In this document: positions 6,749 to 25,776 of the stretch, one piece after another
Numbering within the stretch: position 1 is the stretch's first letter
How the letters are laid out: the number at the start of each line of letters is the position of its first letter
NCBI GenBank assembly: GCA_030538315.1
Contig: JAUNUF010000017.1
Location: 1 to 35,620 of the forward strand
Reading direction: 5' to 3'
Origin: Propionibacteriaceae bacterium
Lineage (GTDB): Bacteria > Actinomycetota > Actinomycetes > Propionibacteriales > Propionibacteriaceae
DNA length: 35,620 bases
Notes under the pieces: model-generated
What the model was told of the DNA's origin: nothing
Database searches by the model: none
What the model saw: only the letters and a program-made list of their open reading frames with translations
Made by a program: the position numbers and the translations under genes

Positions 6749-6777
6749 AGTGTAGTGAGTGAGGGCTCACTCATCAA
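6749..6777 (-). promoter_or_regulatory. Promoter of the tetR-ABC operon with an 18-bp operator in the spacer
   Basis: On the minus strand TTGATG (6777-6772), 17 nt, then TACACT (6754-6749). The perfect dyad TGAGTGAG-gg-CTCACTCA (6756-6773) overlaps the spacer and the edge of the -35 box. Only 6 nt separate the -10 box from the GTG start at 6742, so the mRNA is probably leaderless. A repressor on this dyad would block RNA polymerase directly. Confidence 0.75.
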
Positions 6778-6786
6778 CTAGTGCTT

Positions 6787-6985: not shown

Positions 6986-7789
6986 TTGAGAATGCAGCCG
7001 ACGGCGCTGGTGCTGGACGGGTGTCAGCATGAGTTGGATGATTTGGGGGTGGCGCTGATGCGCCGCGTATCCCGGCGGCTTCGCGCACACTTTGGCCAGA
7101 CCCCCTGCCCCCGGCCCATCCCTGAGGGCCCGCACTTCGTCTACGAGAATGCCCCTCACCTCTTTGGCCAGAGGACAGGGCGTGGGCCACTGCACGTCAT
7201 GCTGGATACCAATGTGTTCCTCGACCTTGCCGATCGCGCCCGAAGTATCTGGCTCGAGGATATTGAGGTAGATAGCAAGTATGGCGAGGAGCTTGAAGCG
7301 CTCCAACTCTTCATGGGGTTATGGGTGATCCGCGACATCCGCCTTCACCTGCCGGAGGCGCTCCGCTGGGACAGCAGGTCCATCTTGTCGGAGAAGCGGC
7401 GCGCAGAGCGCCGACGCGCCATTCGCGAATTTGATCTCGCTTTGCAGCTCGTCGGTGAATTCGATGTAAACCGGCAGGATAGGATCGGTGCCTACCGCGT
7501 CTTGAACAGATTGCTTGAGAGGGTGCCCGCAGGTGGTGACAGATCGATTGCGAGGGAGGCGATGAACTCGGGCATGCACGTCGTGCTGACCCGAGACGAG
7601 GGCTTCCTAAAGGCGAAGGCCAGTCTGCGGGTTGTTGGCATCATGGTCGCCAGCCCTCAGGACCTTCTAGAGATGCTGGTAGCGGCAGGTGCCTTTCACT
7701 GTCTGCTCCGCCCTGAGTGTGCATACTGGCCGTTGCCTGACCAGCATCGTACCTCGCACCTTGCGCGGCTGGCACAGATGATGGTCTGA
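6986..7789 (+). CDS. PIN-domain nuclease-like protein, island paralog 1, 267 aa
   Basis: The core from GPLHVMLDTNVFLDLADR (D74) through KYGEELEALQ (E101/E102), GGDRSIAREA (D185) and VVLTRDEGF (D204) has the four acidic positions of PIN-fold ribonucleases in the right order. About 70 residues precede the core. The C-terminus holds CLLRPECAYW, and PIN2 has a similar Cys pair. It is clearly paralogous to the protein at 10850-11539: GPL-V-LD-NV, EEL, LW--RDIR and LTRD align. Unlike VapC, it has no antitoxin-like gene beside it. The start is TTG at 6986 with GAGAGG 9 nt upstream; ATG at 6992 is the alternative. It faces the GHKL gene convergently. An RNA-cleaving effector is the likely role (inference). 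Confidence 0.7.
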   Translation: MRMQPTALVLDGCQHELDDLGVALMRRVSRRLRAHFGQTPCPRPIPEGPHFVYENAPHLFGQRTGRGPLHVMLDTNVFLDLADRARSIWLEDIEVDSKYGEELEALQLFMGLWVIRDIRLHLPEALRWDSRSILSEKRRAERRRAIREFDLALQLVGEFDVNRQDRIGAYRVLNRLLERVPAGGDRSIAREAMNSGMHVVLTRDEGFLKAKASLRVVGIMVASPQDLLEMLVAAGAFHCLLRPECAYWPLPDQHRTSHLARLAQMMV

Positions 7790-7822
7790 GGTGACAAGTG
7801 ACGGGATCGGCCCTGTCGCGCT

Positions 7823-7849
7823 CCAACCGAGCCGTTCTCGGACTTTTGG
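7823..7849 (+). terminator. Weak intrinsic terminator after the first PIN gene
   Basis: CCAACCGAG and CTCGG/TTGG can pair around a 5-nt loop (ccgtt), with TTTT at 7844-7847 after the main stem. It lies 34 nt beyond the stop of the PIN gene, in the 148-nt convergent gap before the GHKL gene. The stem is short, so this is tentative. Confidence 0.35.
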
Positions 7850-7937
7850 CAGGATCGAGATGGGACGGCCACAGTAGTCTGGCCTTACGAGAACCTAAGA
7901 ACTGCGCTGCCCAACTGTCACTCCTCGCGCCAGGACC

Positions 7938-9611
7938 TCAGGTGAGGACGGCTTCGTCGAGGCGGCGGCGGAGATGGGACAAGAGGCTTAGCGCGTCTAG
8001 GCAGTCTTGGTGGCTGATGACGCCCAACGACTTGATTGTCTCCAGTGCCTCGTGGGACAGCGGGTTGCGGAAAGCAGACCAGATCGCCTTCGATAGCTCA
8101 CGTTGTCCATTCTCAAGGTTTCTGGCTGTGGGGCCGGAGATGCATGGGTTGCCGGAGCGAAAGCGGTTGGTGAAATTGAGCCGAGGGGAGTTCCCTTCAC
8201 CGAGGGCTTTGCCCCAGAGGGAGTCTTCCGCATCGTCAGGCAGCTTAGCTGCTGCCCGAAGATCGGCGACGTATTGCTTACAAGCCTCGAGCAGGGCTTG
8301 ATAGTAGTCGCCGGATTTGAAGTATGTTGCGCTCGCTCCCTGGATGCTTGGGTGGAGGTGGCGCCAGATCAAGTCCGCATACGGTGGCGCGATGCCCTTG
8401 AGGCTCCTGACTGCCTTTCCGCGGTCCTCATCGCTCATATCCGTCTCGTCGGACTCGATGATCTTGATGAGATCGCGAAGGGGCTCCTTCTCGGGGCCTT
8501 TCACCGTGTCTGCCCAGTTGTCTGGGTCGATTCCGACCTGATCCTCCAGCTGTTTCCGTTTCTTGGCCGCCCGCAGTTGCTTGCGTGACTGAGCAATCTC
8601 TTCGACCATCCCCTTAAGCATCTTCCGGATTTTCGCTGCCTCGGGTTGGTCCCAGTTCACAGCCCGGCGGTCGGTGGCGACTACGTCGGGCTTGATTGCG
8701 TCGAGGTCGTCGACCGCGACGTAGCCCGTCAGGTACGCGTAGGCATAACTAGAGTCAGAGGCTCCGAAGAACTCTGGCTCGTTCACAAGCCTCCCGTTAG
8801 CATAAACCGCGACCCCCCGCATAGCAGTGGGAAGCGGCTTCTCGGCTGCCACGACTCTGCCGGTTGCCCCTATGACCCCTGGCTTGTCGGAGTTCTCGGG
8901 TAAGTCGTTAGGGACCGACCACGCGAACTCCTCCGCAATGGTAGAAAGCCGTAGTTCGCGTGTGACAGGAATTTCTGACCCGTCGCGGCCGATCACCTTC
9001 AGGTGAACCTCGTTGTCACCGTAATGAAACAGGCGGGAAAGAGCCTCCGCGAGTTCGGACGGAGAAATATCGCTTGTACGGGTGAGCTTGGAGACTCTTA
9101 CGGATGTCCCGTGGGCCGCGGCCTCGGCTGGTGTGGACTTTGATTCCGGTTGGTAGTCCCCGTCGTTTGTGCCGATAAGATCCGCCCAATCCATGGATAC
9201 ATGGAGCCTTAGGCCCTCCCCCCTCCGGGTTGTGGAAACCTCGATCTGATGGCCGATACCGAACAGGGCTAGTTTGCCCAGCCCCTTCTTTCCGGAGACC
9301 GTGCGCTTCCCACTCTCCGACTTAGCTGTCGTCGCAGACCCCCGTCTGTTACGACCAATTCTCAGATACTTGTCGCGAACGTCATCTCGTGACATGCCGT
9401 GCCCATTGTCGTCGACCACGATGTGCTGCGTTACGCCACTGCCGACGACGCGAACGCAGATCTCCGTGGCGTCTGCGTCGTAGGCATTCGCCACAAGTTC
9501 AGCGACTGCGTTTGGGAGCCTTGAGTACATGTTTGATCCCAAGTGCTCGATCGTGTGGGGGTCGAACTTGAGGACCAGTGGGCTGTCGTCCGGTGAGGGT
9601 GCGCGCTTCAT
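7938..9611 (-). CDS. MORC/MutL-like GHKL ATPase with C-terminal Ymh (HEPN-like) domain, 557 aa
   Basis: The N-terminal GHKL ATPase has the N box ELVANAYDAD (E38, N42), G1 DDNGHGM (67-73) and G2 GKKGLGKLALFGIG (107-120), as in MutL, Hsp90 and prokaryotic MORC-like proteins. An S5-like transducer probably follows, then a charged segment (about 350-400). The last 120 residues resemble the TIGR02391/Ymh family and end in FRNPLSHE, an R-x4-H motif (R515, H520) found in HEPN RNases. Prokaryotic MORC relatives typically sit in restriction-modification loci with Z1/SF2 proteins and methyltransferases, as here. The gene is 16 nt downstream of a cytosine methyltransferase. ATP-driven clamping on foreign DNA coupled to RNA cleavage is my inference. 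Confidence 0.8.
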   Translation of the reverse strand: MKRAPSPDDSPLVLKFDPHTIEHLGSNMYSRLPNAVAELVANAYDADATEICVRVVGSGVTQHIVVDDNGHGMSRDDVRDKYLRIGRNRRGSATTAKSESGKRTVSGKKGLGKLALFGIGHQIEVSTTRRGEGLRLHVSMDWADLIGTNDGDYQPESKSTPAEAAAHGTSVRVSKLTRTSDISPSELAEALSRLFHYGDNEVHLKVIGRDGSEIPVTRELRLSTIAEEFAWSVPNDLPENSDKPGVIGATGRVVAAEKPLPTAMRGVAVYANGRLVNEPEFFGASDSSYAYAYLTGYVAVDDLDAIKPDVVATDRRAVNWDQPEAAKIRKMLKGMVEEIAQSRKQLRAAKKRKQLEDQVGIDPDNWADTVKGPEKEPLRDLIKIIESDETDMSDEDRGKAVRSLKGIAPPYADLIWRHLHPSIQGASATYFKSGDYYQALLEACKQYVADLRAAAKLPDDAEDSLWGKALGEGNSPRLNFTNRFRSGNPCISGPTARNLENGQRELSKAIWSAFRNPLSHEALETIKSLGVISHQDCLDALSLLSHLRRRLDEAVLT

Positions 9612-9627
9612 TCGATGGGTCTTCGGG

Positions 9628-10752
9628 TCAGGCAGTAGGGAAAGCGAGCATCAGATGCTGTCCGATGGCTTGACCGAGTGGGACCGGAACGGCGTTGCCA
9701 ATCTGGCGTGCAATCGATGTCTTCGACCCGACCCATCTATAGGTGTCTCGAAATCCCTGAAGGCGGGCGGCTTCGTGATGGGTAATAGCTCGTGGCTCGG
9801 AAGGGTGCAGGTAGCGTCCCTTTTCAGGTTTGAAGAACTCGGTCCGGATTGTTACAGATGGCCGGTCCCACCAGAGTCGCCCCATCACGTCAGCCGAGCC
9901 ACTAGTGTGCTTGCGCCAACACGGCGCTTTCAAGTGTTCTGGCAGTTTGAATCGATTCTCGCCTTCCCCAATGTAAGAAAAGCGTTCTAATGATATCTCC
10001 TCGTAGTGGCGTGTGATGTGGAGTTCGTCGGATCGGTAGGGGCCAGCCAGGACTCCTCCGCCAAACTGATGCGTTCTGTCCGGCAGATTCTGCACTTGGA
10101 CTTCCGGCGGAAGGTTGCGGAGAGCGCTCCGTACGGTCTTCCAGTCCGAAGGGTCCTGGAAGGTGCCTGCTACTTCGGGGAATCCAGGGAATGGTAGATC
10201 GCGATGATGACCGATCAGAATAACCCTTTTGCGGAGTTGAGCCGTCCCGTATTCCGCAGCATTCAGGATTCTTGCTTGGAATGTGTAGTCGCGCAGATTC
10301 CCGCCGGGGAGACATAGTTCTTCGAACTGATTGAACTGGGGCGAAGTCAGAAAACGTGGGACATTTTCAAGGACAAAGAACTGCGGCTGGGCTTTCAGGA
10401 TGGTGTCGGCGTAGTATTTCCATAACTGGTTGCGCTTGTCGTGAACGTCCTTCTTGCCAAGTGCGGAGAATCCCTGGCATGGCGGGCCTCCGATGATGAG
10501 GTCAGCGGAAGGAACATCCTCGACCTTGATCCAATCTTCGATGGCCCCAGTGAAGACAGTGTGCTTGCCGTGGTTCGCCTCGTATGACGCGGCAGCGTCG
10601 ACGTCAAGCTCCACGGCTCGAACGGTGGAATATTTGTGCGTGGCGGCTCGCGTGGCTGAGGCGCGAGCAAGCCCTTCGCTGAGCCCTCCCGCCCCGCTGA
10701 AAAGATCGAGTACACGAATCTCGGCCCGAGAAGTTAACCGAGAACTCACCAT
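9628..10752 (-). CDS. DNA (cytosine-5-)methyltransferase 1, 374 aa
   Basis: A C5-cytosine methyltransferase with motif I DLFSGAGGL (16-24), motif IV GGPPCQGFS with nucleophile C92, motif VI ENVP (129-132), motif VIII QLRKRVILIG and motif X QIGNAVPVPLGQ. The target-recognition region lies between VIII and X. It methylates cytosine at an unknown site and should protect host DNA from the island's nucleases. It is first of a minus-strand pair with the GHKL-HEPN gene. The ATG at 10752 lies only 8 nt after a TAAGGT -10-like box (10766-10761), so the mRNA is nearly leaderless. It is only distantly similar to the second methyltransferase at 11801, so the two probably have different sites. Confidence 0.92.
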   Translation of the reverse strand: MVSSRLTSRAEIRVLDLFSGAGGLSEGLARASATRAATHKYSTVRAVELDVDAAASYEANHGKHTVFTGAIEDWIKVEDVPSADLIIGGPPCQGFSALGKKDVHDKRNQLWKYYADTILKAQPQFFVLENVPRFLTSPQFNQFEELCLPGGNLRDYTFQARILNAAEYGTAQLRKRVILIGHHRDLPFPGFPEVAGTFQDPSDWKTVRSALRNLPPEVQVQNLPDRTHQFGGGVLAGPYRSDELHITRHYEEISLERFSYIGEGENRFKLPEHLKAPCWRKHTSGSADVMGRLWWDRPSVTIRTEFFKPEKGRYLHPSEPRAITHHEAARLQGFRDTYRWVGSKTSIARQIGNAVPVPLGQAIGQHLMLAFPTA

Positions 10753-10760
10753 GCCACATA

Positions 10761-10766
10761 ACCTTA
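10761..10766 (-). promoter_or_regulatory. Candidate -10 box for methyltransferase 1
   Basis: TAAGGT on the minus strand ends 8 nt before the ATG at 10752. No convincing -35 box is visible. The 97-nt gap to the divergent PIN gene (start 10850) must hold promoters for both directions. Confidence 0.35.
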
Positions 10767-10849
10767 CCGGGCCACTCGCACGAATGTGAGCTCCGAAACT
10801 CGTACGTGCCCCGCCAATTTCGCAGGTTCGATGGCCTTAGGCTTGCATC

Positions 10850-11539
10850 GTGCTACATCAGATTTCGGGCGAGGGCGGATTGGGCTTCTGTCACAGGGCT
10901 CTCCCCAGTCTCCTGCCTCGGGGCTACCACGGTCCACTTGTCGTGTCCTTGGACTCAAACGTGCTAATCGATTTCCAGAAGCACGGAAACGGCCTGATGG
11001 ATGATGACGTACGCGTCAGTGAGGCAAGGTACGCGGAGGAACTGAATTGCCTGGGGTCCTTGCTCGATCTCTGGATGCTGAGGGACATCCGTTTCGTGAC
11101 TACGCGACGCGCCGGTACAGATGCCAAGCGTGGCATGACTGGGTTTCAGGACGTGATCGAAGGTCTCGCGGAAGCTATTGCATTTCAGTATGCCGACTGG
11201 GGGTTCCCCGCGCCATCGCGCTCCGATCCCAACTCAGTTGGAGATGAGCGCGGCCTGCCGGATGGGGCGGATCGGGATCTCCTGCTGGAAGCGCAGGCTG
11301 TGGGGGCCCATGTTTTCCTAACTCGGGACCACAAGGTTCTCCGACGTGCAGCGATGACGGGGCCTCGGTTGCGCATCGCGGCTCCGAGTGGCCTCGTCGA
11401 GGAGTTGCATCGGTCCGGCGTCACCATGCTTGGGGGTGGCCTGTGCAGTGAGCCTGACTGCCCGCATGCGTTGACGACGCCTCTGTTGCCCGATATTGGA
11501 AAGTGGGGCCCGTTGCTGGCGTGCTTTCAAGACCGGTGA
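10850..11539 (+). CDS. PIN-domain nuclease-like protein, island paralog 2, 229 aa
   Basis: GPLVVSLDSNVLIDF (D35), YAEELNCL (E63/E64), GADRDLLLEA (D141, D143) and HVFLTRD (D160) give the four acidic PIN positions. It aligns along its length with the protein at 6986-7789, including LW-LRDIR after the second motif and a Cys-containing tail (LCSEPDCPH). It has a shorter N-terminus and different residues between the second and third motifs. The start is GTG at 10850. It is divergent from methyltransferase 1 and codirectional with methyltransferase 2, with a 261-nt gap. No antitoxin partner is seen. Predicted metal-dependent ribonuclease; its role in the island is inferred from position only. Confidence 0.7.
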   Translation: MLHQISGEGGLGFCHRALPSLLPRGYHGPLVVSLDSNVLIDFQKHGNGLMDDDVRVSEARYAEELNCLGSLLDLWMLRDIRFVTTRRAGTDAKRGMTGFQDVIEGLAEAIAFQYADWGFPAPSRSDPNSVGDERGLPDGADRDLLLEAQAVGAHVFLTRDHKVLRRAAMTGPRLRIAAPSGLVEELHRSGVTMLGGGLCSEPDCPHALTTPLLPDIGKWGPLLACFQDR

Positions 11540-11698
11540 CACTCTGCCCCCGGTTGTGATTCGGGCCGTTGGGCTGCGCTCCGGCGGTGGTTGTGGAAGG
11601 TGTGTGCGTCTGCTTGGTCGCAACAGAGAGAGCCGAAGCTGAAGCGGCGCCATCCGGAGAGGCTGCAACAAGACGGGATTTAGATCATTGTGGCGATT

Positions 11699-11722
11699 AT
11701 GAGTTACAATTGCGTAACTCAT
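11699..11722. promoter_or_regulatory. 24-bp dyad (9-6-9) upstream of methyltransferase 2, overlapping a -10 box
   Basis: ATGAGTTAC and GTAACTCAT are perfect 9-bp inverted arms around AATTGC. A -10-like TACAAT (11705-11710) lies inside the dyad on the plus strand; no good -35 is seen. It is 78 nt upstream of the ATG at 11801. This is the pattern expected of an operator that holds the methyltransferase-Z1 operon in check. No controller protein is encoded nearby, so the ligand could be a methyltransferase itself or a host regulator. Confidence 0.6.
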
Positions 11723-11800
11723 GGCTGACAGGTGCCGATTCTGCTGGCAGAATAGCCAAAATGACGTCGCCCTGCACGTACAGAACGGTGGTACTGAGGG

Positions 11801-13186
11801 ATGGGCTCTAGCTCCAGAGGCTTCAAGTTCGTCGACCTCTTCGCAGGATTGGGCGGTTTCCATGTCGCCTTGTCACAACTCGACGGCCGCGGGGTGTTCG
11901 CGGCTGAGTGGGAGCCTGCACTCAAGGGTCTGTATGAGTCGAACTTTGGCATTAGGCCGTGGGGTGACCTCAACGAACTCGAAAGTGATACTGACATCCG
12001 GCGCGAGATCCCTGATCACGAGGTGTTGACCGCAGGGTTTCCTTGCCAGCCGTTCTCGAAAGCTGGCGATCAGATGGGTTTTGCCGACACTGCCCAAGGA
12101 AACTTGTTCTTCAAGGTCTACGACATCCTGCGGGTCCGGCGGCCCCGCCGCTTCATCTTGGAGAATGTGCCCAACATCCTCCAACATGATGAAGGCCGTA
12201 CCCAGGCGACGATAGTCAGGATGCTCGAAGATCTTGACTATGACGTGAAGGTCGCGCGGTTCTCACCGCATGAGTTCGGCATCCCGCAAGTGCGGGACCG
12301 CGCTTACTTCGTTGGCTCACTGGATGGTCTTGATCAATTCGACTGGCCGACCAAGCACAAGGACCCCACAGACATCACTTCCGTGCTTCGCCACGACGTA
12401 CCCGCGCAGCGTCCGATCCCGGAACTGACCTTGCGGGCCATCGACATGTGGGGAGACTTCCTGCGCCGCTCGCCAGCTTCGCTGAAGATGCCGTCCTTCC
12501 CGATCTGGGCGATGGAGTTCGGTGCGACCTATCCCTACGAGGATGAGACACCGCCCGGTATTTGGGACCGACGGCCGAGGTGGGGGCTCCGAAACATGGG
12601 CGTCAGGGGCAGCTTCGGCTTCGAGCTCGAGGTGCCGGTCGACCAGCAGAAGGAACTGATCCCTAGCCATTCGCGTCGTGTTGGCGACCACCAGTTCCCT
12701 CGGTGGAAGCGGAACTTTATCCGGCAGAACCGCGAATTTTACCGAGAGAACCGCTCGTGGGTTGATCCCTGGATGAACCAGTGGCAGCCCTGGGACTTTC
12801 CCTCGAGCTTTCAGAAGATGGAGTGGAACGCACAAGGGGAGGAGCGTGACATCGACAACTTCGTCCTTCAGATCCGCGCGTCTGGTTTGCGCATCAAGCG
12901 CCCTTCCACCGCACCCAGCCTCATCGCATTCACCCAGACCCAGGTGCCGATCCTTGGAGCGAATCTAACCGGTGAGCGCCGTTACATGACGCCGTCCGAG
13001 TGCGCGCAACTCCAGAGTCTTGGGGATATTCAGTTGCCGGCTTCTGACTTGGACGCATACAAGGCGCTTGGAAACGCCGTTAACGCGCGTGTGGTTAGGG
13101 CGATTGCTGAGAAACTCTTGGAGGGGCTCAACTTCCCTTCCCCTGCCACCGTCGACAACCTCAAAGCACTGGGAGCTACTGCGTGA
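11801..13186 (+). CDS. DNA (cytosine-5-)methyltransferase 2, 461 aa
   Basis: An M.HhaI-like enzyme: motif I DLFAGLGG (12-19), motif IV GFPCQPFSKAG (C82), motif VI ENVP (121-124), motif VIII QVRDRAYFVG, then a long target-recognition region (about 190-390). The end has LTGERRYMTPSECAQLQSLG and motif X KALGNAVNARV. It modifies cytosine at an unknown site. The ATG at 11801 is the first start after an in-frame stop at 11795; GAGGG abuts it too closely to be a good ribosome site. It is the first of four genes read as one operon, and its stop overlaps the next start (GTGA). It is probably the protective activity paired with the DUF262, Z1 and DUF4420 proteins. Confidence 0.92.
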   Translation: MGSSSRGFKFVDLFAGLGGFHVALSQLDGRGVFAAEWEPALKGLYESNFGIRPWGDLNELESDTDIRREIPDHEVLTAGFPCQPFSKAGDQMGFADTAQGNLFFKVYDILRVRRPRRFILENVPNILQHDEGRTQATIVRMLEDLDYDVKVARFSPHEFGIPQVRDRAYFVGSLDGLDQFDWPTKHKDPTDITSVLRHDVPAQRPIPELTLRAIDMWGDFLRRSPASLKMPSFPIWAMEFGATYPYEDETPPGIWDRRPRWGLRNMGVRGSFGFELEVPVDQQKELIPSHSRRVGDHQFPRWKRNFIRQNREFYRENRSWVDPWMNQWQPWDFPSSFQKMEWNAQGEERDIDNFVLQIRASGLRIKRPSTAPSLIAFTQTQVPILGANLTGERRYMTPSECAQLQSLGDIQLPASDLDAYKALGNAVNARVVRAIAEKLLEGLNFPSPATVDNLKALGATA

Positions 13187-15120
13187 CCGACTACATCGAA
13201 CACGAGGATGATGAACTGACCGAGGAAGACCCACGCCTGCAGTTGCTAGATGGCCTGGCTGAGGGGATGGCTGGACTGTCGGAGGCTGCGGACACACCAA
13301 ATGGTGTTCCTTCAGTGTCTTCGACTTTCAGCGTCGGTGATGTTGATTTCTCGTCGGATGCTTGGATGAACCAGTTGGCCGACATTCAGGGCTGGCTGAG
13401 CTTTAGCGAGGATCTTCCACTCGCGAGCGGAGAAGCGTTTCTCCAGGTGCTCATGAATGAACTCAACTTGGATTCCACCGACATCCTTGACTCTGCGACA
13501 GCGAGCCCGCCGCTGAGCGTGCGCGCGCTGGAACGCCTGAGTCAGCGTGTCGACACTGCGGTGAAGCTGCAGGCGGACTTCCTTGAGGAGTTGGACGCCA
13601 AGGGGACAACCCGCTCCACGGCCACTCAGTCATGGGCAGACGCTTGGGCGGAGGCTGAAGCAGATGACGAGGTCGTCAGCCCCGAGCCGGTGACGGCAAA
13701 AGCCGCGGTCTGGCCCATTTTCCAACTCACCAAGAAGTCACCGAACCTCACGCCGTCGTACCAGCGCGGTGATGTTTGGCGGAACGGCGATCGACAGTCC
13801 CTCATGGAGTCGATCCTCCGGGGCGTTCCGCTGCCTTCGGTCATCCTGCTTCGCACAGGCTCCTCCACCCCGCACGAGGTCGTCGACGGCAAGCAGCGGC
13901 TCACCGCAATCCTCCGATTCGTGGGCAAGCATCCTGTAGCAAAGCAGGTAGTCGCGGAAGTCTCCGGCCGGCATGTCGGGAAGCGTTTCAACGAGCAGGG
14001 CAAGCTCGACGACCAAGGTGACCGGACGTTAGCGGACCTTTTCAATGATGACTATCCGGCATTCCGACGCGCATGGAAGGCGTTGGAGGGCTACGTCCTC
14101 AATGCCAGCGATGAGAATAACTTCTACTTCCCCTACAAGCTGCGCACGACGGGTGACGGTGGTTTGGTTGGGCCTCACCTTGAACCCTTACGCGGGAAGT
14201 ACTACACCCAGATCAAGCAGAACGAGATCAACGTTGCGGGTCAGCAGCTGACTGTGGAGGCCCTGTTCGAGGATGTTGTGGAGTACACAATTCCCGTCAT
14301 TGAATACACTCAAGCCACTCAGGCCCAGATCCACGAAGTCTTCCGTCTGTACAACAAGCAGGGCGTCCACCTCAATGCAGAAGAGATCCGCAACGCGGTC
14401 TACCACGAGGTCGAGTTGACGCGTGCGACGCTCGCGGCGGCCGGTGATGCAGATCCCAACACCCCTGTCGCTGAAATAGCCAAGTCGCTGGCCGGGATAC
14501 CCAATCTCAGCCACCTAGGTGACGCCCTCAAGAACTACGGTTTCGGAGACACCCGCTACAAGCGCACCAAGGTTCTTGCATGGGTGATATCTGTGCTGGT
14601 TCACGACACCGGCGAGAAGGACCTTGCCTCCACGGCGCGCAACATAGACCAGTTGCTGAACACGATCCGGGATAATCCGTCACACCCGCTGGCGGAGTCG
14701 TCGACGTTGACCAAGCTATTCGCGCTCCTAGTCGACGCCGTAGAACTGCACGCGTCACATGATGAGTTGTGGTCCGAACAGTTCATGGATGGCGGGAAGG
14801 GCGTCAAGTGGCAGGAGCTTCAGTTGGTGGGCTCACTCGTAGGCATTGCCATGGCCCTAGCTGCGTCGCCCCATGACGTCGAGGATCGAATCGAAGCGAA
14901 TGCGGCGGCAATCCGCGCGGCAACTGAAGAATCGAAGGTTTGGGAGCGCCCAGCTAAGACGCAGACCAAGACCCAATGGGACTACATCGCCAGGATCAAC
15001 AAGAGCTTGCTCGAACTCTTGGGCATTGACCCCGCTCTAGCTGCCGATGCAATCCGCCAGCAGTTCGGGTCATCGGGGTATGCGTCCCTCCAGCGAATGC
15101 TCATCCCACCAAAGAGTTGA
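13183..15120 (+). CDS. DUF262-family protein (GmrS/ParB-like), 645 aa
   Basis: The first 170 residues are acidic and helical. The DUF262 domain follows, with PSYQRGDVWR at about 190-200 and the family hallmark DGKQR at 235-239 inside EVVDGKQRLTAILRF. DUF262 is the N-terminal half of type IV enzymes such as GmrSD, where this motif belongs to a nucleotide-dependent module. I see no DUF1524 HNH domain at the C-terminus (helical, charged, ends MLIPPKS), so it is GmrS-like only and would need another protein for cutting. The GTG start overlaps the methyltransferase 2 stop by 4 nt. It lies 3 nt before the Z1 gene, implying a joint complex. Confidence 0.82.
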   Translation: MTDYIEHEDDELTEEDPRLQLLDGLAEGMAGLSEAADTPNGVPSVSSTFSVGDVDFSSDAWMNQLADIQGWLSFSEDLPLASGEAFLQVLMNELNLDSTDILDSATASPPLSVRALERLSQRVDTAVKLQADFLEELDAKGTTRSTATQSWADAWAEAEADDEVVSPEPVTAKAAVWPIFQLTKKSPNLTPSYQRGDVWRNGDRQSLMESILRGVPLPSVILLRTGSSTPHEVVDGKQRLTAILRFVGKHPVAKQVVAEVSGRHVGKRFNEQGKLDDQGDRTLADLFNDDYPAFRRAWKALEGYVLNASDENNFYFPYKLRTTGDGGLVGPHLEPLRGKYYTQIKQNEINVAGQQLTVEALFEDVVEYTIPVIEYTQATQAQIHEVFRLYNKQGVHLNAEEIRNAVYHEVELTRATLAAAGDADPNTPVAEIAKSLAGIPNLSHLGDALKNYGFGDTRYKRTKVLAWVISVLVHDTGEKDLASTARNIDQLLNTIRDNPSHPLAESSTLTKLFALLVDAVELHASHDELWSEQFMDGGKGVKWQELQLVGSLVGIAMALAASPHDVEDRIEANAAAIRAATEESKVWERPAKTQTKTQWDYIARINKSLLELLGIDPALAADAIRQQFGSSGYASLQRMLIPPKS

Positions 15121-15123
15121 GCC

Positions 15124-17931
15124 ATGCCGCAGAGCACACCACTTGTTGAGCACGTCTACTTCAGTGCACCGACTCCCCAAGAGCAGGACTCCTGGTGGGC
15201 CCGCTACGAAGCTCAGCTGGGCGGCCTAACCAAGACAGCGCGTGCTTCGGTTGAAGCCGATTCTCGGTACATTCTTCATCGCGGGGTTCTGGCTGCCGAC
15301 ACAACACTGCCCGAGGATTGGCCCCCGGGGAGGTCCCGCACAGGACTGGTCATGGGGTCGGTCCAATCAGGCAAGACAGCCTCCATGTTGGGGGTCTCCG
15401 CGCTCGCCATCGATCACGGGATCGACATCGTGGTGGTTCTCGCTGGCACTCGTGTCTCCCTCTGGCGCCAGACTTATGATCGTCTGTTGAGGCAACTGGA
15501 CGCGGGGGATGACAACGCTCAGAAGATCAAGCGACGCCTGCTTTGTCCGCTGCCCGGGGTTGTGCATTCTGACCAGACCGTCCCACTCAGCACGACATAC
15601 CGGATGCCACCGCCCCAAGTTCGTCAGCGACTCGCCAAGGGGAACCCCTTGATCGTGGTAGCCATGAAACAGACTGACCACCTGCACGCGTTGGCTGCTA
15701 GCCTTCGAATGAATGTTTATGAGGCGATTGAGTCCCTCGAAAGGCCAGTCCACATGCTGGTTCTGGATGACGAGGCCGACGACGGGTCGGTCTTGGACGC
15801 GGTGGTCGAATCTTCTCAAGACCCTATCTACGGCAAGCTGAAGCAGATCCCTCGTGCGATCGCCAACCTGTGGGATCCACCTCAGGGGTCCCCTGACAAT
15901 CTCTTTTCCACCTACGTTGCTTACACAGCGACACCTCAAGCAAACCTCCTCCAAGAGGACCACAACCCTTTGGCTCCGCGTGACTTTCTGATCTCGCTCC
16001 GCACCCCTCTGGATATCGGTCATCCGGTTGACACGAACGCCCCGGGTAACCTCGATGCTCCTCGTTCGTCCAGCTATCCAGAACCTGCCGGGATTCGCTC
16101 GTACTACACCGGCGGTGAGGTCTTCTACCGTCGCGCCGAAGCTGCAGGACTGTGCATACCCGCCACTGCTTCCGCCCAGCAGGATCTGGCAGATGCGGTC
16201 CGCGCTTTCCTTGTGGCTGGCGCCATTCGGCTGTCTCGTTCGAAGAAGATGGGGCCGGCATCGGCAGTTGCGACCCAGTTTGATACCGAAGCGGAAGCGT
16301 TGGCCGAGGTAGCATCGCCGCACTCAATGCTGTTCCATCCTTCCGCCACGATCGATGACCACTTCCGAAGCGCTGAGGACGTCTTGCTTTGGGCTGGTGT
16401 CCAAGACCGCGCCGTCGCTCGCGACATGCTCAGCACTGGTGATGCTCGCCTTCCTGGCACCCTAATCACCGAGCTCCAGGCTAACGGCGCCCCATGGTCT
16501 GAATGGCTCGACAAATACAGGGCCTCCGCGCGTGAGATCGAAGACGAATTTGGAGTGCTCCTGCCGATCGAATTTCCTGACTGGCCGACCATCGAGTCCC
16601 TCTTGGTCAATGAGATCATTCCCGGGACAAGAGTTGCGGTGGTCAACAGTGATCCGAACGCCGACGACAGGCCAGCTTACGTGCCAGTACAAGACGCTCA
16701 GAGCGGCAAGTGGCAAGCCCCCCGCGACCTCAGCACGATCTTCGTCTCTGGAAATGTCATGGCCCGAGGCCTGACGTTGGAGGGCATGACCACAGCGCTT
16801 TTTCAACGATCGTCTACAAACCCGTTGGCTGACACCCAGATGCAGATGCAGCGTTGGTTCGGATACCGCGGTTCCTACATCGAGTTGTGCCGCGTCTTCG
16901 CATCGGATGAGCAGCTGAGGCTTTTTCGCGCTTACCACGATGTTGACGAGGCCGTGCGCACAGCCATGTCGGAGTACATGATGGGCGGCGCTCCCGAACC
17001 GGCCGTCCTGCAGGGCCTGAACTTCGCTGCCACAGGGAAGATCGCAAGTGTCGGTAATCATCCGCTTGCTCCGGGTGCTCGTCCCTTCGTCACCGTTGTT
17101 AACGACAGTGGACACCCCGACCCAAATGCCAATATTCTTGCCGGTCTCTTCGGAGGCCCGTCCAGGGACGTCAGTGTTGCCGGTGTGCTTCGTGGCCGTA
17201 TACTGGAGGAACCCCTAAGCCTTACTTCGGCCGCGGACCTTCTTGACAGTCTCGCTTTCCCCGGCTATCGGCCAGGGATTGGGGGGTTCACCGGTGATTT
17301 CTGGAGCCGCGTCGAGGCGCGAGCGCATGCGATGGCTCCCTTGGACTCCCCCCTCTATCGTCCGCCCGTCAAGCACGGCCTGGGTGATCCAGCGCGACGA
17401 GTGTGCCCCTACGCCATCTCTGCCTACCTCCGGCTTTGGTCTGCGAGCCTCACCCGTTCGATCACGGGACTGTTCGTTACTGGCCGTCCCGGAGAGTTAT
17501 GGTCCTACGCCGATCTGGCGCGGAAGACTGCTGAACAGCCACGCTTCTGGGTCGGTATCCGGTATGGCGGCGGAGCCACAGTTTCCTCTGGCCCACTAGC
17601 CCAGTTGCCGTTCGATATCCGTGCCACCACCAAGCGGGTTGTCGGAGGTGAGTTGCAGACGACATGGGGAGCGAGTGATCCCAACGCGGGCCCGGATCAG
17701 TATCGTGGGGACGTCTATTTCGACTACTACCACCGTGGGGCACTCGTGCCGCTGAGCAGCGAGACATCGTGGCGGCCCAGCGGGTCTGACGGCCAGATAC
17801 TCTTCTACGTCAACCAACATCCCGACGATCCACACCCCACAGTCGCAGTCGGAGTCTGCATCCCTGCAGGTGGGCCTGAGCAGTTCTCAGCCACCCGCGC
17901 TAGGGTGGTTGTCGCCACGAGGAGCCCTTGA
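15124..17931 (+). CDS. Z1 domain protein (superfamily II-type ATPase of MORC-linked restriction systems), 935 aa
   Basis: Walker A is GSVQSGKT (78-85), motif II LDDEADD (214-220) and motif III TATP (268-271). The Z1 signature region follows: ARGLTLEGMT (547-556) and QMQRWFGYRG (about 574-583). The remaining 350 residues are divergent and may contact DNA or partners. Z1 proteins are recurrent partners of GHKL/MORC-like ATPases, cytosine methyltransferases and PD-(D/E)XK nucleases in bacterial conflict loci. The protein probably translocates on or remodels DNA and licenses the nuclease encoded next. It starts 3 nt after the DUF262 stop and ends in a 1-nt overlap with the DUF4420 gene. Confidence 0.9.
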   Translation: MPQSTPLVEHVYFSAPTPQEQDSWWARYEAQLGGLTKTARASVEADSRYILHRGVLAADTTLPEDWPPGRSRTGLVMGSVQSGKTASMLGVSALAIDHGIDIVVVLAGTRVSLWRQTYDRLLRQLDAGDDNAQKIKRRLLCPLPGVVHSDQTVPLSTTYRMPPPQVRQRLAKGNPLIVVAMKQTDHLHALAASLRMNVYEAIESLERPVHMLVLDDEADDGSVLDAVVESSQDPIYGKLKQIPRAIANLWDPPQGSPDNLFSTYVAYTATPQANLLQEDHNPLAPRDFLISLRTPLDIGHPVDTNAPGNLDAPRSSSYPEPAGIRSYYTGGEVFYRRAEAAGLCIPATASAQQDLADAVRAFLVAGAIRLSRSKKMGPASAVATQFDTEAEALAEVASPHSMLFHPSATIDDHFRSAEDVLLWAGVQDRAVARDMLSTGDARLPGTLITELQANGAPWSEWLDKYRASAREIEDEFGVLLPIEFPDWPTIESLLVNEIIPGTRVAVVNSDPNADDRPAYVPVQDAQSGKWQAPRDLSTIFVSGNVMARGLTLEGMTTALFQRSSTNPLADTQMQMQRWFGYRGSYIELCRVFASDEQLRLFRAYHDVDEAVRTAMSEYMMGGAPEPAVLQGLNFAATGKIASVGNHPLAPGARPFVTVVNDSGHPDPNANILAGLFGGPSRDVSVAGVLRGRILEEPLSLTSAADLLDSLAFPGYRPGIGGFTGDFWSRVEARAHAMAPLDSPLYRPPVKHGLGDPARRVCPYAISAYLRLWSASLTRSITGLFVTGRPGELWSYADLARKTAEQPRFWVGIRYGGGATVSSGPLAQLPFDIRATTKRVVGGELQTTWGASDPNAGPDQYRGDVYFDYYHRGALVPLSSETSWRPSGSDGQILFYVNQHPDDPHPTVAVGVCIPAGGPEQFSATRARVVVATRSP

Positions 17932-18992
17932 TGAGCAACTATGAGGAAATACTCGACCGCGTTAGCGCCATCCCAACTGGCGCTGCTGGGCAGGACCGGA
18001 CTATCACCTGGCTGACGGACGCTCAGGTGGTCGGCCTCGCGCGGAATAGCCGGGGCCACTTGGAGTTGTTCCTGGCAGGGGAACGGCTCGAGCCCAAAAC
18101 CCGCACCGTTCGCGAGGCAATGGAGCACCACTCTTGGCATCGAGATGCCCTGCCGCCGCTGAGCGCCAACCGGCTCCTGTTGCCAGCATTGGGACACTTC
18201 GATCAGGTCGGATCATTCATCGCCACGGAGTTGCTCCGCGAGGGGGCTGAAACGAACCTGGCCCGCTCCTTCGCCGTGACCGAACCCCTGATCGAGCTCT
18301 CAATCAAACGTCTGGAGGTGTCCAACAGCGCCATCCTCGGACTTGTCGGTGAGTTGCTCATCCTTGATGGTCTCTGCAGGAGAGCTGAGGATCTCTATGT
18401 CGGGCCAATCGTCCAGTCATGGGATGGGTGGCGTCGCTCGTCTCGAGACCTGAGTTGGCAGGGGACAGGGGCGGAGATCAAGTCCACAACTGGCGTGACT
18501 TCAAGCCACATGATCAACGGCGTCCACCAGATTGAGCCTGCCCCCACTACCGATGACCAGACGGGCGAGGAACGCCTGCTGCTCGTTAGCATTGGACTGG
18601 CCATAGCTGAGCCAGACGTTTCGGCCATCAAGATCGCAACGCTTGTCGACAGTATTGTCGAGCGGTTGAACGCGAGCGGAGGGGCCGCGTTGATCGACGA
18701 CTTCTTGAAGCGTGTTGCTACCTACGGATCTGAGTCGGGGATCGGATATGACCACAGGACCATGGCCAACGATGCCCCGTTCTCCACGCCGTTCAGCGTG
18801 ACGTTTGTGCGCGGTTACGACATGGGCGACCCGGCGATAGGAGTCATTCGGCGAGAGGATGTCATCGCTCGTCAGCACGTTAGCCCTGAGTCCCTGACGT
18901 TCCGGGCGGACCTGCCTGCGACGGTTAGTCTTGGAAACCCCCTGACCGGCATCCGTAGGGTTGCCGAGGCGATTCTGGGCTTCCAGCAATGA
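17931..18992 (+). CDS. PD-(D/E)XK motif nuclease, DUF4420 family, 353 aa
   Basis: The central region reads LVGELLILDGL (E141), then RDLSWQG (D173) and AEIKST (E182, K184), which fits a GE...D...ExK restriction-endonuclease core as in DUF4420. It would be the DNA-cutting subunit of the Z1 complex. I start it at ATG 17931, overlapping the Z1 stop by one base (TGATG), because GAGGAG lies 6 nt upstream. A TTG three nt earlier is less likely. It is last in the operon and is followed by a 228-nt gap with no visible gene. Confidence 0.85.
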   Translation: MSNYEEILDRVSAIPTGAAGQDRTITWLTDAQVVGLARNSRGHLELFLAGERLEPKTRTVREAMEHHSWHRDALPPLSANRLLLPALGHFDQVGSFIATELLREGAETNLARSFAVTEPLIELSIKRLEVSNSAILGLVGELLILDGLCRRAEDLYVGPIVQSWDGWRRSSRDLSWQGTGAEIKSTTGVTSSHMINGVHQIEPAPTTDDQTGEERLLLVSIGLAIAEPDVSAIKIATLVDSIVERLNASGGAALIDDFLKRVATYGSESGIGYDHRTMANDAPFSTPFSVTFVRGYDMGDPAIGVIRREDVIARQHVSPESLTFRADLPATVSLGNPLTGIRRVAEAILGFQQ

Positions 18993-19220: not shown

Positions 19221-21794
19221 ATGGCGGGGCCGACCGATCTTCATCGTCGCCAACTGCATCAACTACTGGAGGTGCTTCGCTCGGTCGTAGGCGTGGAGTC
19301 AGCGTTGGAGGCGGTCATGAGTCTCCTCCATGCCCGAAAGTGTGACGGGGAGCTTTGGGACCGGGTGTTGAGTTTCAGGGGGCCGTTGGGACACGAACTG
19401 CGGCCCCGGTCAGCCAGAGGCCGCCGAGCCCTTGAGGATGTGCCGCCCCACGTTCTCAGTCACCTAATGCATGAGATCACTGCCATTCCAGCGGTTGACG
19501 TGACCCCAGTCTTTGAATTGTGTATCCGGTACCGCCATGAACAGTTGGGGCGGTTCGGTCAGGCACACACAGCCCTCGACTGGCTTGGCGCTTTGCAAGT
19601 TGCGTTGGGGAGTCCGATAGAGGGAGTTGTACACGATCCGGCCTGTGGTTACGGGGGCACGCTGCTCGCAGCAGCGCAGGCGGGGGCGACGCAACTCAGC
19701 GGAACTGACATTAGCCCCGATGCGCTGGAGACGGCGCGGATGCGGCTAGAGATGCACGGCCTGCGTGCCGAGTTGGATCTTGCTGATTCGCTGCAGGGCC
19801 GACCGCTTCTGGCAGATCGGGTCCTCGCAGACCCGCCGATGGGCATGCGCCTAAGATCCGACCAGCTTGAGCCTTGGGGAATCTATGCGCCCTCCGATGA
19901 CGTGGGGGCCTGGCTGCGGTTGGCCCGAGCAAGTCTGGGCCCCGAAGGGATCGGAGTCGTCTGCGTTCCCTTGGGGCGACTTTCTGCATCTCGGACCTTC
20001 GTGGATATGGTGGAGGATGCACTAGTCGAGTCGGTGTTTCTCCTGCCCAGCGGCAGCCACGTCGGAAGCCGAATCCAAATCGCGATGGTGACGATTAACC
20101 CTTGGCAACGCCCCTCTGAACGGCTTCCAGTGTTCGATGCACAGAGCTACTTCACAACGGATAGGGGGAGGGTGCCCCAGCCTGTTGAGGGAGCCATCCA
20201 GGAACTCGCTGGTCTCTTGGGCCACTGGCGGGGTCATTCCGAGCACGCCGGACCGGGCCATGTCTGCACCACCGTGATGCGATCTGACATCCGAAAGGGT
20301 TTCTACGCGGAGTTCGCCCCTGCGCCTGTCGAGTCGAGGCCCATCCCAACTCCAGGTGCCCGACTCCTGAAACAGCTGCGCGTTGAAAACGTTAAGTCCT
20401 TCTCCTCGGCGCAGGAGGCGCGCCTCGCGCCTATTACCCTCGTGTACGGGCCCAACTCGGCTGGCAAGTCCACCTTGGTCCAGGCGCTCCTGATGCTCCT
20501 CCAGTCTGCGGCGACAACCACCCTCATCACGAACGGACGATTGGCGCAGCTGGGATCGTTCTCCAGTGCAGTGAGCCACCATGACATAGAGCGAGATGTG
20601 GGTCTGGGCATCGATTTCGGAGTAATTCCCCCCTGGGGGACAACCGAGACTCTTCATCCAGATCTCCTCCGGACCATCGATGTCCGATACTCAAGGCGCA
20701 CGACAACGGACGCTGAAGCGTCAGAGATCAGGATCGGCACCGGTGTGACGCCGCCTTTGGTTGCGAGCAGCGCTCCCTTTGAGCATGAGGCCACCGCGTC
20801 CAATCTCGGCGGTGGCGAACTGTGGAGCATCAACGCAGACTCATTGGAGGGGTGGGCGGCCACGCTCGATGACTTGGATGGCGCCTTCTATGATCCGCAA
20901 CGTCAGCCTGACTCTGGCCGGACGGTATACAAGAGACTGGGTGCTGCAGTTCGAAGGCTCCAGGTACGCCCCGGCGTCCCGGTGCAGGCTGACAGGGTTC
21001 GGCTGATTCCGTCCAACGTTGTTGTTCCCCCTCTTGGATATCAGGGCCCCGACGCCGGCGAAATGCTTCAGTCCCGATTGAATCGCGTTATGGTCGCTTT
21101 GAATGATGAGGTCAGCCGTCTTGCTGACCGCGTGGTCCGTCTGGGGCCGGTCCGCCCCGCGCCTGCTCGCGTCACCCAACGTGTGACAATCAATGCCTCC
21201 GACCCCGCGGATTACCCCAGTTTTCTCTTTGAGAACGACAGCGCGGTTGAGAAACTCAACGAATGGTTGGGAGAACTGGGAATCGGGTATGCGGTGTCCA
21301 TCGAGCCGATCAGTTCTCGTAGCGGACTAGCGGCTGTTGGAGACTTTGTTGCGGTGGTCCTCACCGATCTCAAGACCGGGGTCCAGGTAACACCGGCAGA
21401 TGTTGGATACGGCGTCAGCCAGGTGCTACCGATCGTCGTCCAGTGCCTTCAAGCGAACGAGCAGGTGCTGTGTATCGAGCAGCCGGAATTGCATCTTCAC
21501 CCCCGGCTTCAGGCTAGTCTCGCTGACCTCTTTATCGACTCTACTGCGGAGAGCGGCGGGGGCAACCAGATCATCGCCGAGACTCACTCGGAGCATCTGT
21601 TGCTCCGTCTCCGCAGACGAGTTCGTGAAGAATTGATCAGCCCTGACCAAATCAGCGTCCTCTACGTCGATCACGACGACACTGGTGCGACGGTGAAGCA
21701 GCTCCGTCTCGGGCCTCAGGGAGAGTTCCTTGATCCGTGGCCAGCAGGATTCTTCGATGACTCCCTTGAAGATGTCTTGGGAGGATGGACGTGA
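19221..21794 (+). CDS. Fusion of an HsdM-like N6-methyltransferase domain and an AAA ATPase with DUF3696 tail, 857 aa
   Basis: Residues 60-300 match the HsdM/N6-MTase fold: SAM-binding DPACGYGG (139-146), GTDISPDALE, and motif IV ADPPMG (203-208) where the family has NPP(F/Y). Residues 383-857 are an OLD/SMC-like ATPase: KQLRVENVKSFS, Walker A GPNSAGKST (410-418), GVSQVLPIVVQ, Walker B VLCIEQPELHLHP (about 749-761), AETHSEHLLLRL, and a DUF3696-like end (DPWPAGFFDDSLEDVLG). Loss of the aromatic residue that stacks on the flipped adenine suggests altered or absent methylation, perhaps a DNA or SAM sensor. No HsdS is present. AGGAGA lies 4 nt before ATG 19221. The stop overlaps the next start (GTGA). 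Confidence 0.85.
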   Translation: MAGPTDLHRRQLHQLLEVLRSVVGVESALEAVMSLLHARKCDGELWDRVLSFRGPLGHELRPRSARGRRALEDVPPHVLSHLMHEITAIPAVDVTPVFELCIRYRHEQLGRFGQAHTALDWLGALQVALGSPIEGVVHDPACGYGGTLLAAAQAGATQLSGTDISPDALETARMRLEMHGLRAELDLADSLQGRPLLADRVLADPPMGMRLRSDQLEPWGIYAPSDDVGAWLRLARASLGPEGIGVVCVPLGRLSASRTFVDMVEDALVESVFLLPSGSHVGSRIQIAMVTINPWQRPSERLPVFDAQSYFTTDRGRVPQPVEGAIQELAGLLGHWRGHSEHAGPGHVCTTVMRSDIRKGFYAEFAPAPVESRPIPTPGARLLKQLRVENVKSFSSAQEARLAPITLVYGPNSAGKSTLVQALLMLLQSAATTTLITNGRLAQLGSFSSAVSHHDIERDVGLGIDFGVIPPWGTTETLHPDLLRTIDVRYSRRTTTDAEASEIRIGTGVTPPLVASSAPFEHEATASNLGGGELWSINADSLEGWAATLDDLDGAFYDPQRQPDSGRTVYKRLGAAVRRLQVRPGVPVQADRVRLIPSNVVVPPLGYQGPDAGEMLQSRLNRVMVALNDEVSRLADRVVRLGPVRPAPARVTQRVTINASDPADYPSFLFENDSAVEKLNEWLGELGIGYAVSIEPISSRSGLAAVGDFVAVVLTDLKTGVQVTPADVGYGVSQVLPIVVQCLQANEQVLCIEQPELHLHPRLQASLADLFIDSTAESGGGNQIIAETHSEHLLLRLRRRVREELISPDQISVLYVDHDDTGATVKQLRLGPQGEFLDPWPAGFFDDSLEDVLGGWT

Positions 21795-22807
21795 TTCTCC
21801 AAACTGCGATCGATGCCCGAGCATTGGGTGAACTGCTGGACCAGAGCCCTCGGATGCGCATGGCACTGCATCGAATACTGACGAATCTGTTGCTGCAGCA
21901 TTCGCAACTGGTTTGGAGTGATCAAGCGGACACGAATGAACTGGTGCAGGCGCTCAGGCGACAGGCTGATCCAGACGTTGGCCGCCTCTGGGCGGAGACG
22001 CTCAAGGCGTTGGAGCGTTCTGGGCGGATGCGAACGCTTCGGCCCGGGCTCGATCTCACCACCGGGCAGGCATGCGACTCGGACCCGCTAGCGAGCGAGC
22101 TAGCCGATGCCTTGGACTTGGTAGTCGTGAGTTCCTCAGTGCTCGACAAGAAGGGGCTGGGGGCCACTGGCTACGGTCAGATGCCGGGTGAGCCGGAGTT
22201 GGCGGCGCTGGAGGCCGTCGACTCTTGTGACTCGGTTCGAAAGGTTAGGGCTCTACATGCCGGCGGCGGTTTCCCGTCCGGCACTGACCGAGAGACCGTG
22301 TGGCGAACGGTCATGCTGCCACTTGCAAGGGCCTCGCGTGAAGTTACCTTGTTTGACCGCTATCTATTGGAGCGCTTCGGGCAAGGCTCCTACCGCGCCA
22401 ACCATGTCAGCTGGCTTATCGAGCGGCTAGATCAGGCTTGCGCGCCAAACTCCACCGTCCGTCTGCTATGCGCCCTCAACGACAGCCACGAACGGGGCAC
22501 CATCGGGTCGGACTTCGAGAGGGAGGTGATTCGCGCTCCGCTCAAGAATATGACAGTCAAACTTGTTATGGCACCGTGGAAGGCTGGGCATGGGGATAGA
22601 GGTGCTCACAATCGACACCTGCGTTTCTCCTGCGGCATGGGGTTGGCGATTGAGGAGGGCTTTGATCGGTTTGGTTCTGCCCGGATTTCGGGTCCCGATG
22701 GGTTTGCTCTGAACCCTCTGACCACCGCAGATGCATTGACAAGGCGTTGTGATCTTGAAGAGTACGTCACTGGGCACCCTGACCGCGCGGAGTATGTTTT
22801 CCTCTGA
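21791..22807 (+). CDS. Partner of the MTase-ATPase fusion; possible MIT_C/PLD-like fold, 338 aa
   Basis: I start it at GTG 21791, which overlaps the upstream stop as GTGA and has GGGAGG 6 nt before it. ATG 21785 is the alternative, but GGGAGG abuts it. The N-terminal 190 residues are helical and unrecognised. From about 195 the pattern VTLFDRYLLE, SWLIERLDQ, VRLLCALND, VKLVMAP, then HNRHLRF-CGMGLAIEEGFDRF resembles MIT_C-type phospholipase-D-like domains, where a conserved HDR is followed by a GRGLD-like turn. This is pattern recognition, not a firm homology call. Coupled translation implies it acts with the ATPase, perhaps as its effector or DNA-binding subunit. Confidence 0.6.
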   Translation: MILQTAIDARALGELLDQSPRMRMALHRILTNLLLQHSQLVWSDQADTNELVQALRRQADPDVGRLWAETLKALERSGRMRTLRPGLDLTTGQACDSDPLASELADALDLVVVSSSVLDKKGLGATGYGQMPGEPELAALEAVDSCDSVRKVRALHAGGGFPSGTDRETVWRTVMLPLARASREVTLFDRYLLERFGQGSYRANHVSWLIERLDQACAPNSTVRLLCALNDSHERGTIGSDFEREVIRAPLKNMTVKLVMAPWKAGHGDRGAHNRHLRFSCGMGLAIEEGFDRFGSARISGPDGFALNPLTTADALTRRCDLEEYVTGHPDRAEYVFL

Positions 22808-22866: not shown

Positions 22867-23538
22867 TTAGCCATCGGATATGGAGCTTGAATCGAGGATG
22901 TTACCGACCTCTGATCTGGCATCAATGCAGGCCTTACGGGCTCGTCCGTAGCTCGCATAGGTGAGCCCTGCGACGAGAGGCTCCGCACCCTGCTCGATGC
23001 GACCGATGCGGCGCAGCGCGACCTCAGCAGCGTCGACCAATTCCTGTCCGGAAGTTGTCTGGGCTAGCTGAGCGAACTCGTTGGTGATGGGTAGCAGTTC
23101 GTTGAGGGACCGTTGGAGGGCCAGTAGATTCGCGTGGACGTCCTGCGTGTGAAACCCATAGCGGGACTTGAAATCCAGTTCGGACTCGAACGTCGGGAGC
23201 AGACAGGCCTCCGGCGAGACGCCGGGCAGCGTCGGGAACTCACGAGGAACTCCCGAGAAGCCGCTGCCCGACGTGTTCATGCCGAGTTCGCGTTCGAGTT
23301 CGGCGATCCGGTCAATGCTCGCCCGTGCTGCTGGCTTGGCCTCCTTGCTGGCCGCGATCGAATCTCTCAAGCGCAGGCCAGCCCGTCCCGCTAGGGTCAG
23401 GACGAGGCCCAGGGGCCAGAGCGTCCACCAGAGCAGGGAGTAGTAGTGGTTGGGTGCTTCCTTACCTTTGGGTAGGAAAACAGCGCTCAGCAGATGGCCG
23501 ATCCCGATGTAGGCCAAGCCATACAGCACGTACTCCAT
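22867..23538 (-). CDS. Two-helix membrane protein of unknown function, 223 aa
   Basis: Two hydrophobic segments (about residues 3-21 and 34-53, the second rich in Trp and Leu) form a hairpin in the membrane. A charged helical region (about 60-90, likely coiled coil) and a soluble C-terminal domain follow. ATG 23538 has GAAAGG 6 nt upstream. It is the last of three closely spaced minus-strand genes, 14 nt after the previous stop. It faces the defence island convergently across a 59-nt gap. No family recognised. Membrane anchoring of a complex with the two upstream products is possible. Confidence 0.7.
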   Translation of the reverse strand: MEYVLYGLAYIGIGHLLSAVFLPKGKEAPNHYYSLLWWTLWPLGLVLTLAGRAGLRLRDSIAASKEAKPAARASIDRIAELERELGMNTSGSGFSGVPREFPTLPGVSPEACLLPTFESELDFKSRYGFHTQDVHANLLALQRSLNELLPITNEFAQLAQTTSGQELVDAAEVALRRIGRIEQGAEPLVAGLTYASYGRARKACIDARSEVGNILDSSSISDG

Positions 23539-23552
23539 GTGAGTCCTTTCGG

Positions 23553-25298
23553 TTACTTGGCGTTGTTCGGGTTCTCGTCGGTGAGCCGTTCCCTGAGGTT
23601 AGCCATTGCTTCAGGGCCAGGCGGGGTTCCGAGCAGAACGTCCACGGGGCCGTATTGAGCATCGGCCCACGCCCTAGCTGAGGCCATGGTCCCGCCATGT
23701 GCGAGCCACACCTCGTAGAGGGAAGCCCGCCAACCGGCTGGCCAGCCAGCGTCCTCTGCTTCCTTGGCCTTAAGCGCCTCGTCCTCCCGGGCGTTTGCCC
23801 AAGCGCCTTCGGCAGCCTCAAGCTCCCGTCGGAGATCGGCTTCATCCTCTGCCGACGGGGCGCCGCTGGCGGTCCAGAAGTTGGACCAGACGTCGGCCAC
23901 CCAAGCTTCGTCGTCGGGATTCTCCGCCATCCGTGCCTTGGCGCGGGTGTGCAGGGACTCGCCGTCTTCTTCGAAGCCGAGGAATGCCCGGCTCTCGGCG
24001 CCCTTCGTCATCGCCTGCCGCAGGTCGTCGAGTTGAGCCTGAAGCCTCCGCACGTCATCCTCATGTGGGGTGGCCAATGCCGCCGTCACCTGCTGGCTGA
24101 GGCTGGCGGACAGTTGTTCGTTGGCCCTTTTTTCCTCAGTTCGGCGTTCGAACTCCTCGAGCGGGACCCCTTGTGCGTTGGCAATGACAGCCTGCACTCT
24201 CCTCATGTTGTCCTCCATGCGCTCCGCCATGGTGGGTGCGCGCTGGTCGTCTTCCGGTGCCTCGATGTAGCCCAGCATCGCCTGATACACGTGATTCCAG
24301 GAGCCGGACTGGTAGCTGCCATGGGCGATCTGCCGGAGCCAGGCGTAGACGATCTGGCCGCGCTCGGAATCCGGATCGCGCAGGGAGTCGACTGCTTCGC
24401 GCAGGGGTGGGTAGGCGTTGCAGAGCAGGTCCACGACCTGCTGTTCGAGTTCCTGCGGCAGGTAGGAGCTGACTTCCTGACCCTCCACGTCTTTAGCTCC
24501 CCAGAGCGCCGAACGATCCTCGTCCGAGAGGCCTGGGACACCAACGGCGCTGAGGAGGAAGGGGAGTTCCCAATCCAGCTCTAGGATGTCGGCTGTGATT
24601 GCCCGTGCCTCGTCTTCTGGGGCTGGGGCGGGGAAGATGAGCATGATGGGATCGGAATCACCCCAGCGGCGCAGGGCCCAGAGGTTGGGGCCGCATCGTC
24701 CGTAGTCGGCCCCGCCGTCCCACGTGCAGGGCCCGCCGGATTCGCCGTAGAAGCTCCAGCTCAGTAGCTCTTCCGTGAGGTAGGGCTTGTTCCAGTCTGA
24801 ATCCGGATCCACCAAGCCGACGGCGGCGAAGCCGTCTCCGCGCAGGACGAAGCCACGGTCGTCGTTGATCATGATCCAACGGGTCACGATCTCGTGGTCG
24901 CCCCCGGCCACCATGTAGCTCATCTCTTCGTCGGCTCTGAGCATTTCATCGACGTCGAAGAGATCAGTGGTGGGATTGCCGTCTGCGTCTGCCCAGCCTT
25001 CGGCGTTCTGCTCATCGGCGAGCGGGTCGTCGACGACGAGCAGCCCGAGGAGGTCATGCAGAGCGATGGGGCCGTCGTAGGTGATCTGCGTGAAGCCGGT
25101 GCCGACGAGGGCCAGAGCCGGCTCGGCGGCCACTGCCTGGGCGAGGGTCATGCCGGCCTCGCCAAGGATGGTGGTGGTTTCGCCGCCGGTGGTGCGGACG
25201 GTGTAGTGAAGGGAGCCGGCGTCCTCGGTGAGGAGGTGCTCGGTGGTGTTGCCGTCGGGAAGGACGTGCAGGTTGGAGTAGCTGATGGCGTTGGTCAT
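23553..25298 (-). CDS. Large acidic protein of unknown function with C-terminal coiled coil, 581 aa
   Basis: The protein begins MTNAISYSNLHVLPDG. The first 250 residues look like a mixed alpha/beta domain with a Gly/Cys segment (GGPCTWDGGADYGRCGPN). The middle is helical. Residues from about 380 are strongly charged coiled coil (Glu/Ala/Arg-rich), ending in Pro/Gly. I use ATG 25298 because it lies 1 nt after the previous gene's stop and AGGAGG is 8 nt upstream. The frame stays open to 25487, but that part is Ser/Thr/Pro-rich and out of character. Negatively charged and soluble. No catalytic motif recognised. Confidence 0.75.
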   Translation of the reverse strand: MTNAISYSNLHVLPDGNTTEHLLTEDAGSLHYTVRTTGGETTTILGEAGMTLAQAVAAEPALALVGTGFTQITYDGPIALHDLLGLLVVDDPLADEQNAEGWADADGNPTTDLFDVDEMLRADEEMSYMVAGGDHEIVTRWIMINDDRGFVLRGDGFAAVGLVDPDSDWNKPYLTEELLSWSFYGESGGPCTWDGGADYGRCGPNLWALRRWGDSDPIMLIFPAPAPEDEARAITADILELDWELPFLLSAVGVPGLSDEDRSALWGAKDVEGQEVSSYLPQELEQQVVDLLCNAYPPLREAVDSLRDPDSERGQIVYAWLRQIAHGSYQSGSWNHVYQAMLGYIEAPEDDQRAPTMAERMEDNMRRVQAVIANAQGVPLEEFERRTEEKRANEQLSASLSQQVTAALATPHEDDVRRLQAQLDDLRQAMTKGAESRAFLGFEEDGESLHTRAKARMAENPDDEAWVADVWSNFWTASGAPSAEDEADLRRELEAAEGAWANAREDEALKAKEAEDAGWPAGWRASLYEVWLAHGGTMASARAWADAQYGPVDVLLGTPPGPEAMANLRERLTDENPNNAK

Positions 25299-25299
25299 G

Positions 25300-25776
25300 T
25301 CATGCCTCCTTGGCGATGGGGTTCTGGATGGGGGTGGGGTTGTCGTCGTGGGGCTGGCGGGCGAGGCGGAGGAGTTCGACGGCTCCTGCGACGGGGTCGA
25401 ACTTGCCGCCTCGCCGGATGATGAAGTTCCGCAGGGCGTCGACATTGATGGGGAAGGCCTGGCGGTCGCCGTCGGAGAGGCCGCCACCGAGGGCGATCAG
25501 CTCCGGATCTGCGGTGTAGACCTCGACCTTCTCGTAGGGGCCGGCGTAGTCGCAGGGGGCGTCATGGAGTGGGGTGGAGGGGCCGGTGACGTGTTCCCCG
25601 TCTTCGTTTGTGTAACAGAGCGCGGGCCGTGGTGAGGAGTGGGTGCTTCCTCTGGCGATGATGGAGAGTTCCGTGCCGTCGGCGCAGACCATGTTGTTGT
25701 TGCCGATGTGGCCGTGGTGGCCGCGGTTTCCGTGCCGGGCGATGTGGTCGAGGCTTGGGGTCAGTGAATGTGTCAT
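25300..25776 (-). CDS. Conserved-looking protein of unknown function, 158 aa
   Basis: It starts MTHSLTPSLDHIARHG, with a His/Gly/Asn-rich stretch (HGNRGHHGHIGNNN), then ADGTELSIIARG and a compact alpha/beta domain. I chose ATG 25776 because GAAAGA lies 6 nt upstream; ATG 25815 would add 13 unlikely residues. It is first of the three-gene operon, and its stop is separated by one base from the next start, so the two proteins are probably made in equal amounts. The His-rich stretch may bind metal (speculation). Confidence 0.65.
   Translation of the reverse strand: MTHSLTPSLDHIARHGNRGHHGHIGNNNMVCADGTELSIIARGSTHSSPRPALCYTNEDGEHVTGPSTPLHDAPCDYAGPYEKVEVYTADPELIALGGGLSDGDRQAFPINVDALRNFIIRRGGKFDPVAGAVELLRLARQPHDDNPTPIQNPIAKEA

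Follow-up and report, generated by a model that had tools for sequence, protein, structure and literature searches.

Restriction–modification (R-M) operons of the MORC/paraMORC type associate a distinct SF2 helicase, with the motif DThhQXuRhFG, with a nuclease of the RE fold and a DNA methyltransferase (MTase), and in the sections of their description considered here other families displace MORC from its position (PMC2292703). For paraMORC-Ymh HEPN proteins in R-M neighbourhoods, a PrrC/RloC-like role has been proposed (PMC3710099). The block analysed here, at 6986..18992 of a 35,620-nt window (the whole stretch analysed: Propionibacteriaceae bacterium, GCA_030538315.1, contig JAUNUF010000017.1, 1 to 35,620), consists of two adjoining bacterial DNA-defence modules, A and B. 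Module B, which shares these operon features, is a recurring four-gene restriction system in which a different ATPase family, DUF262, stands in place of the usual MORC-type ATPase partner. Module A is a rarer pair, a methyltransferase with a predicted ATPase–RNase, accompanied by two predicted RNA-cutting PIN genes.

Module B and its DUF262 subunit

Gene positions given in a preliminary description were confirmed, with motifs intact, and its coupled DUF262 subunit was borne out by a strong link. An MT2 orthologue (at least 50% identical) lies directly upstream in 33 of 52 DUF262-type loci. Within the DUF262 protein FxxxN reads FRLYN, and Q-R, DGKQR, F and N are identical in 54/54 relatives; its sole Pfam match is GmrSD_N (20 open reading frames of the window were scanned), with no match to the DUF1524 His-Me nuclease domain. 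Residues E142, D174 and E183-x-K185 of DUF4420 are likewise unchanged in all 47 relatives. MORC-type MzaB was not found in module B, nor did Pfam find AIPR in the block.

The inverted repeat before MT2 is a possible operator; no like repeat occurs in the upstream stretches scanned in 34 relatives. A hairpin before MT2, AGCCGCTGTCGGTCCTACAGCGGCT, is common to four proteobacterial loci (L096, L097, L114 and L122; two bases shorter in L096).

Module A and the proposed RNA-cutting arm

The GHKL protein of module A matches PF13589 (6.9e-21) and PF09509 (9.2e-17), and RNPLSH at residue 515 fits the R-x4-6-H motif of paraMORC-Ymh HEPN proteins; on these features it falls within the definition of that group, and an RNase role is predicted. 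Identification of this GHKL as MzaB was rejected (20 bits against 850 required), as was a BbrUII/HgiDII restriction enzyme identity (NF050001, 192.5 bits against a curated 550, best stretch N-terminal).

PIN1 scores 18.3 bits against PF01850, where the gathering score is 23.6, and PIN2 does not match that family; Asp/Asn residues are common to both. Relatives of PIN1 occur in G235 (37%) and G823 (39%), with an apparent decayed PIN2 copy in the same place in G235. For the RNA-cutting arm proposed earlier, the HEPN domain is a likelier candidate than the PINs by themselves. Module A may be a back-up defence, harmful to the infected cell itself.

Two modules at a defence hotspot

Similarity to the TetR–ABC-transporter flank stops at window positions 6777-6779 in 6/6 same-genus loci (L212-L217; nucleotide comparison), and GC content passes from 63.5-69% in the left flank to 57-62% over the block. 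At the same site G423 has the DISARM-type genes DrmA, DrmB and DrmD together with an AspBHI-type enzyme and an MT1 relative (60%); in G447 a type IV restriction enzyme lies there. Because other defence genes lie there and the synteny edge is sharp, the site is a defence hotspot; the association of neighbours therefore needs testing, and joint membership is not to be presumed.

This bears on the earlier proposal of a composite restriction island. Its underlying observation held, but the genes form two modules, and the case for both halves as a single composite system is not strong: each half recurs without the other, module B carries its own MTase, and GHKL is present in only 1 of 55 DUF262-type loci. 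The neighbourhood check proposed for the PIN and DUF262 genes separated the two, the DUF262 link being strong while PINs occur in 0/52 DUF262-type loci.

Table 1. Features of the block, with window positions
Feature	Position	Strand	Remark
PIN1, predicted PIN-domain protein, module A	6986..7789	+	PF01850 below cut-off
GHKL ATPase of paraMORC type, Ymh HEPN domain at its C-terminus	7938..9611	-	
MT1, 5-methylcytosine DNA methyltransferase	9628..10752	-	16 nt upstream of GHKL-HEPN gene
PIN2, paralogue of PIN1	10850..11539	+	
Inverted repeat ahead of MT2, perfect, with 9-bp arms and a 6-bp spacer	11699..11722	.	possible operator
MT2, 5-methylcytosine DNA methyltransferase, module B	11801..13186	+	
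DUF262 (GmrSD_N) NTPase-like subunit, 645 aa	13183..15120	+	SYQR, DGKQR, FxxxN motifs
Z1 gene (order MTase2-DUF262-Z1-DUF4420 in the preliminary description)	15124..17931	+	
DUF4420, PD-(D/E)XK nuclease	17928..18992	+	

To the right (window 19221-22807), one gene encodes N6-MTase and AAA_21/DUF3696 ATPase domains in a single protein. It has a 10-nt overlap with the gene of a 340-aa protein that matched no family of Pfam, NCBIfam or PADLOC. The N6-MTase protein resembles parts of PADLOC NsnB and PDC-M55A, and neither protein was found in the 52 DUF262-type loci. Two minus-strand genes without confident family match follow (window 22867-25487); relatives also lie within the G423 island.

Comparison with described systems

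The block is far below the MzaABCDE equivalog cut-offs (1500, 420); at 113.7 bits against 1500 it is related to Mza, not a member. There, the MORC GHKL protein MzaB is in the operon, whereas DUF262 takes that place in module B, and neither the sigma factor MzaA nor the AIPR protein MzaE had a Pfam match among the scanned frames. CglI/NgoAVII (PMC4267653) differ in having three genes without DUF262 and a PLD-B3 nuclease, in contrast to PD-(D/E)XK in module B. The DUF262 motifs QR, DG(Q/K)QR and FxxxN are shared with GmrSD, BrxU, SspE and GrwAB (PMC12137116), although the DUF1524 domain that marks GmrSD-type IV enzymes is lacking from the matches here. Module A shares with paraMORC-Ymh HEPN proteins (PMC3710099) a GHKL protein with C-terminal Ymh HEPN adjoining a DNA MTase. 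Among related published systems, type I carries three extra genes, and type II has AIPR added and a MORC association, whereas module B has DUF262 added and no GHKL or AIPR in its operon. In the same sections of PMC2292703, the replacements described are all GHKL ATPases, whereas in module B the replacement is DUF262.
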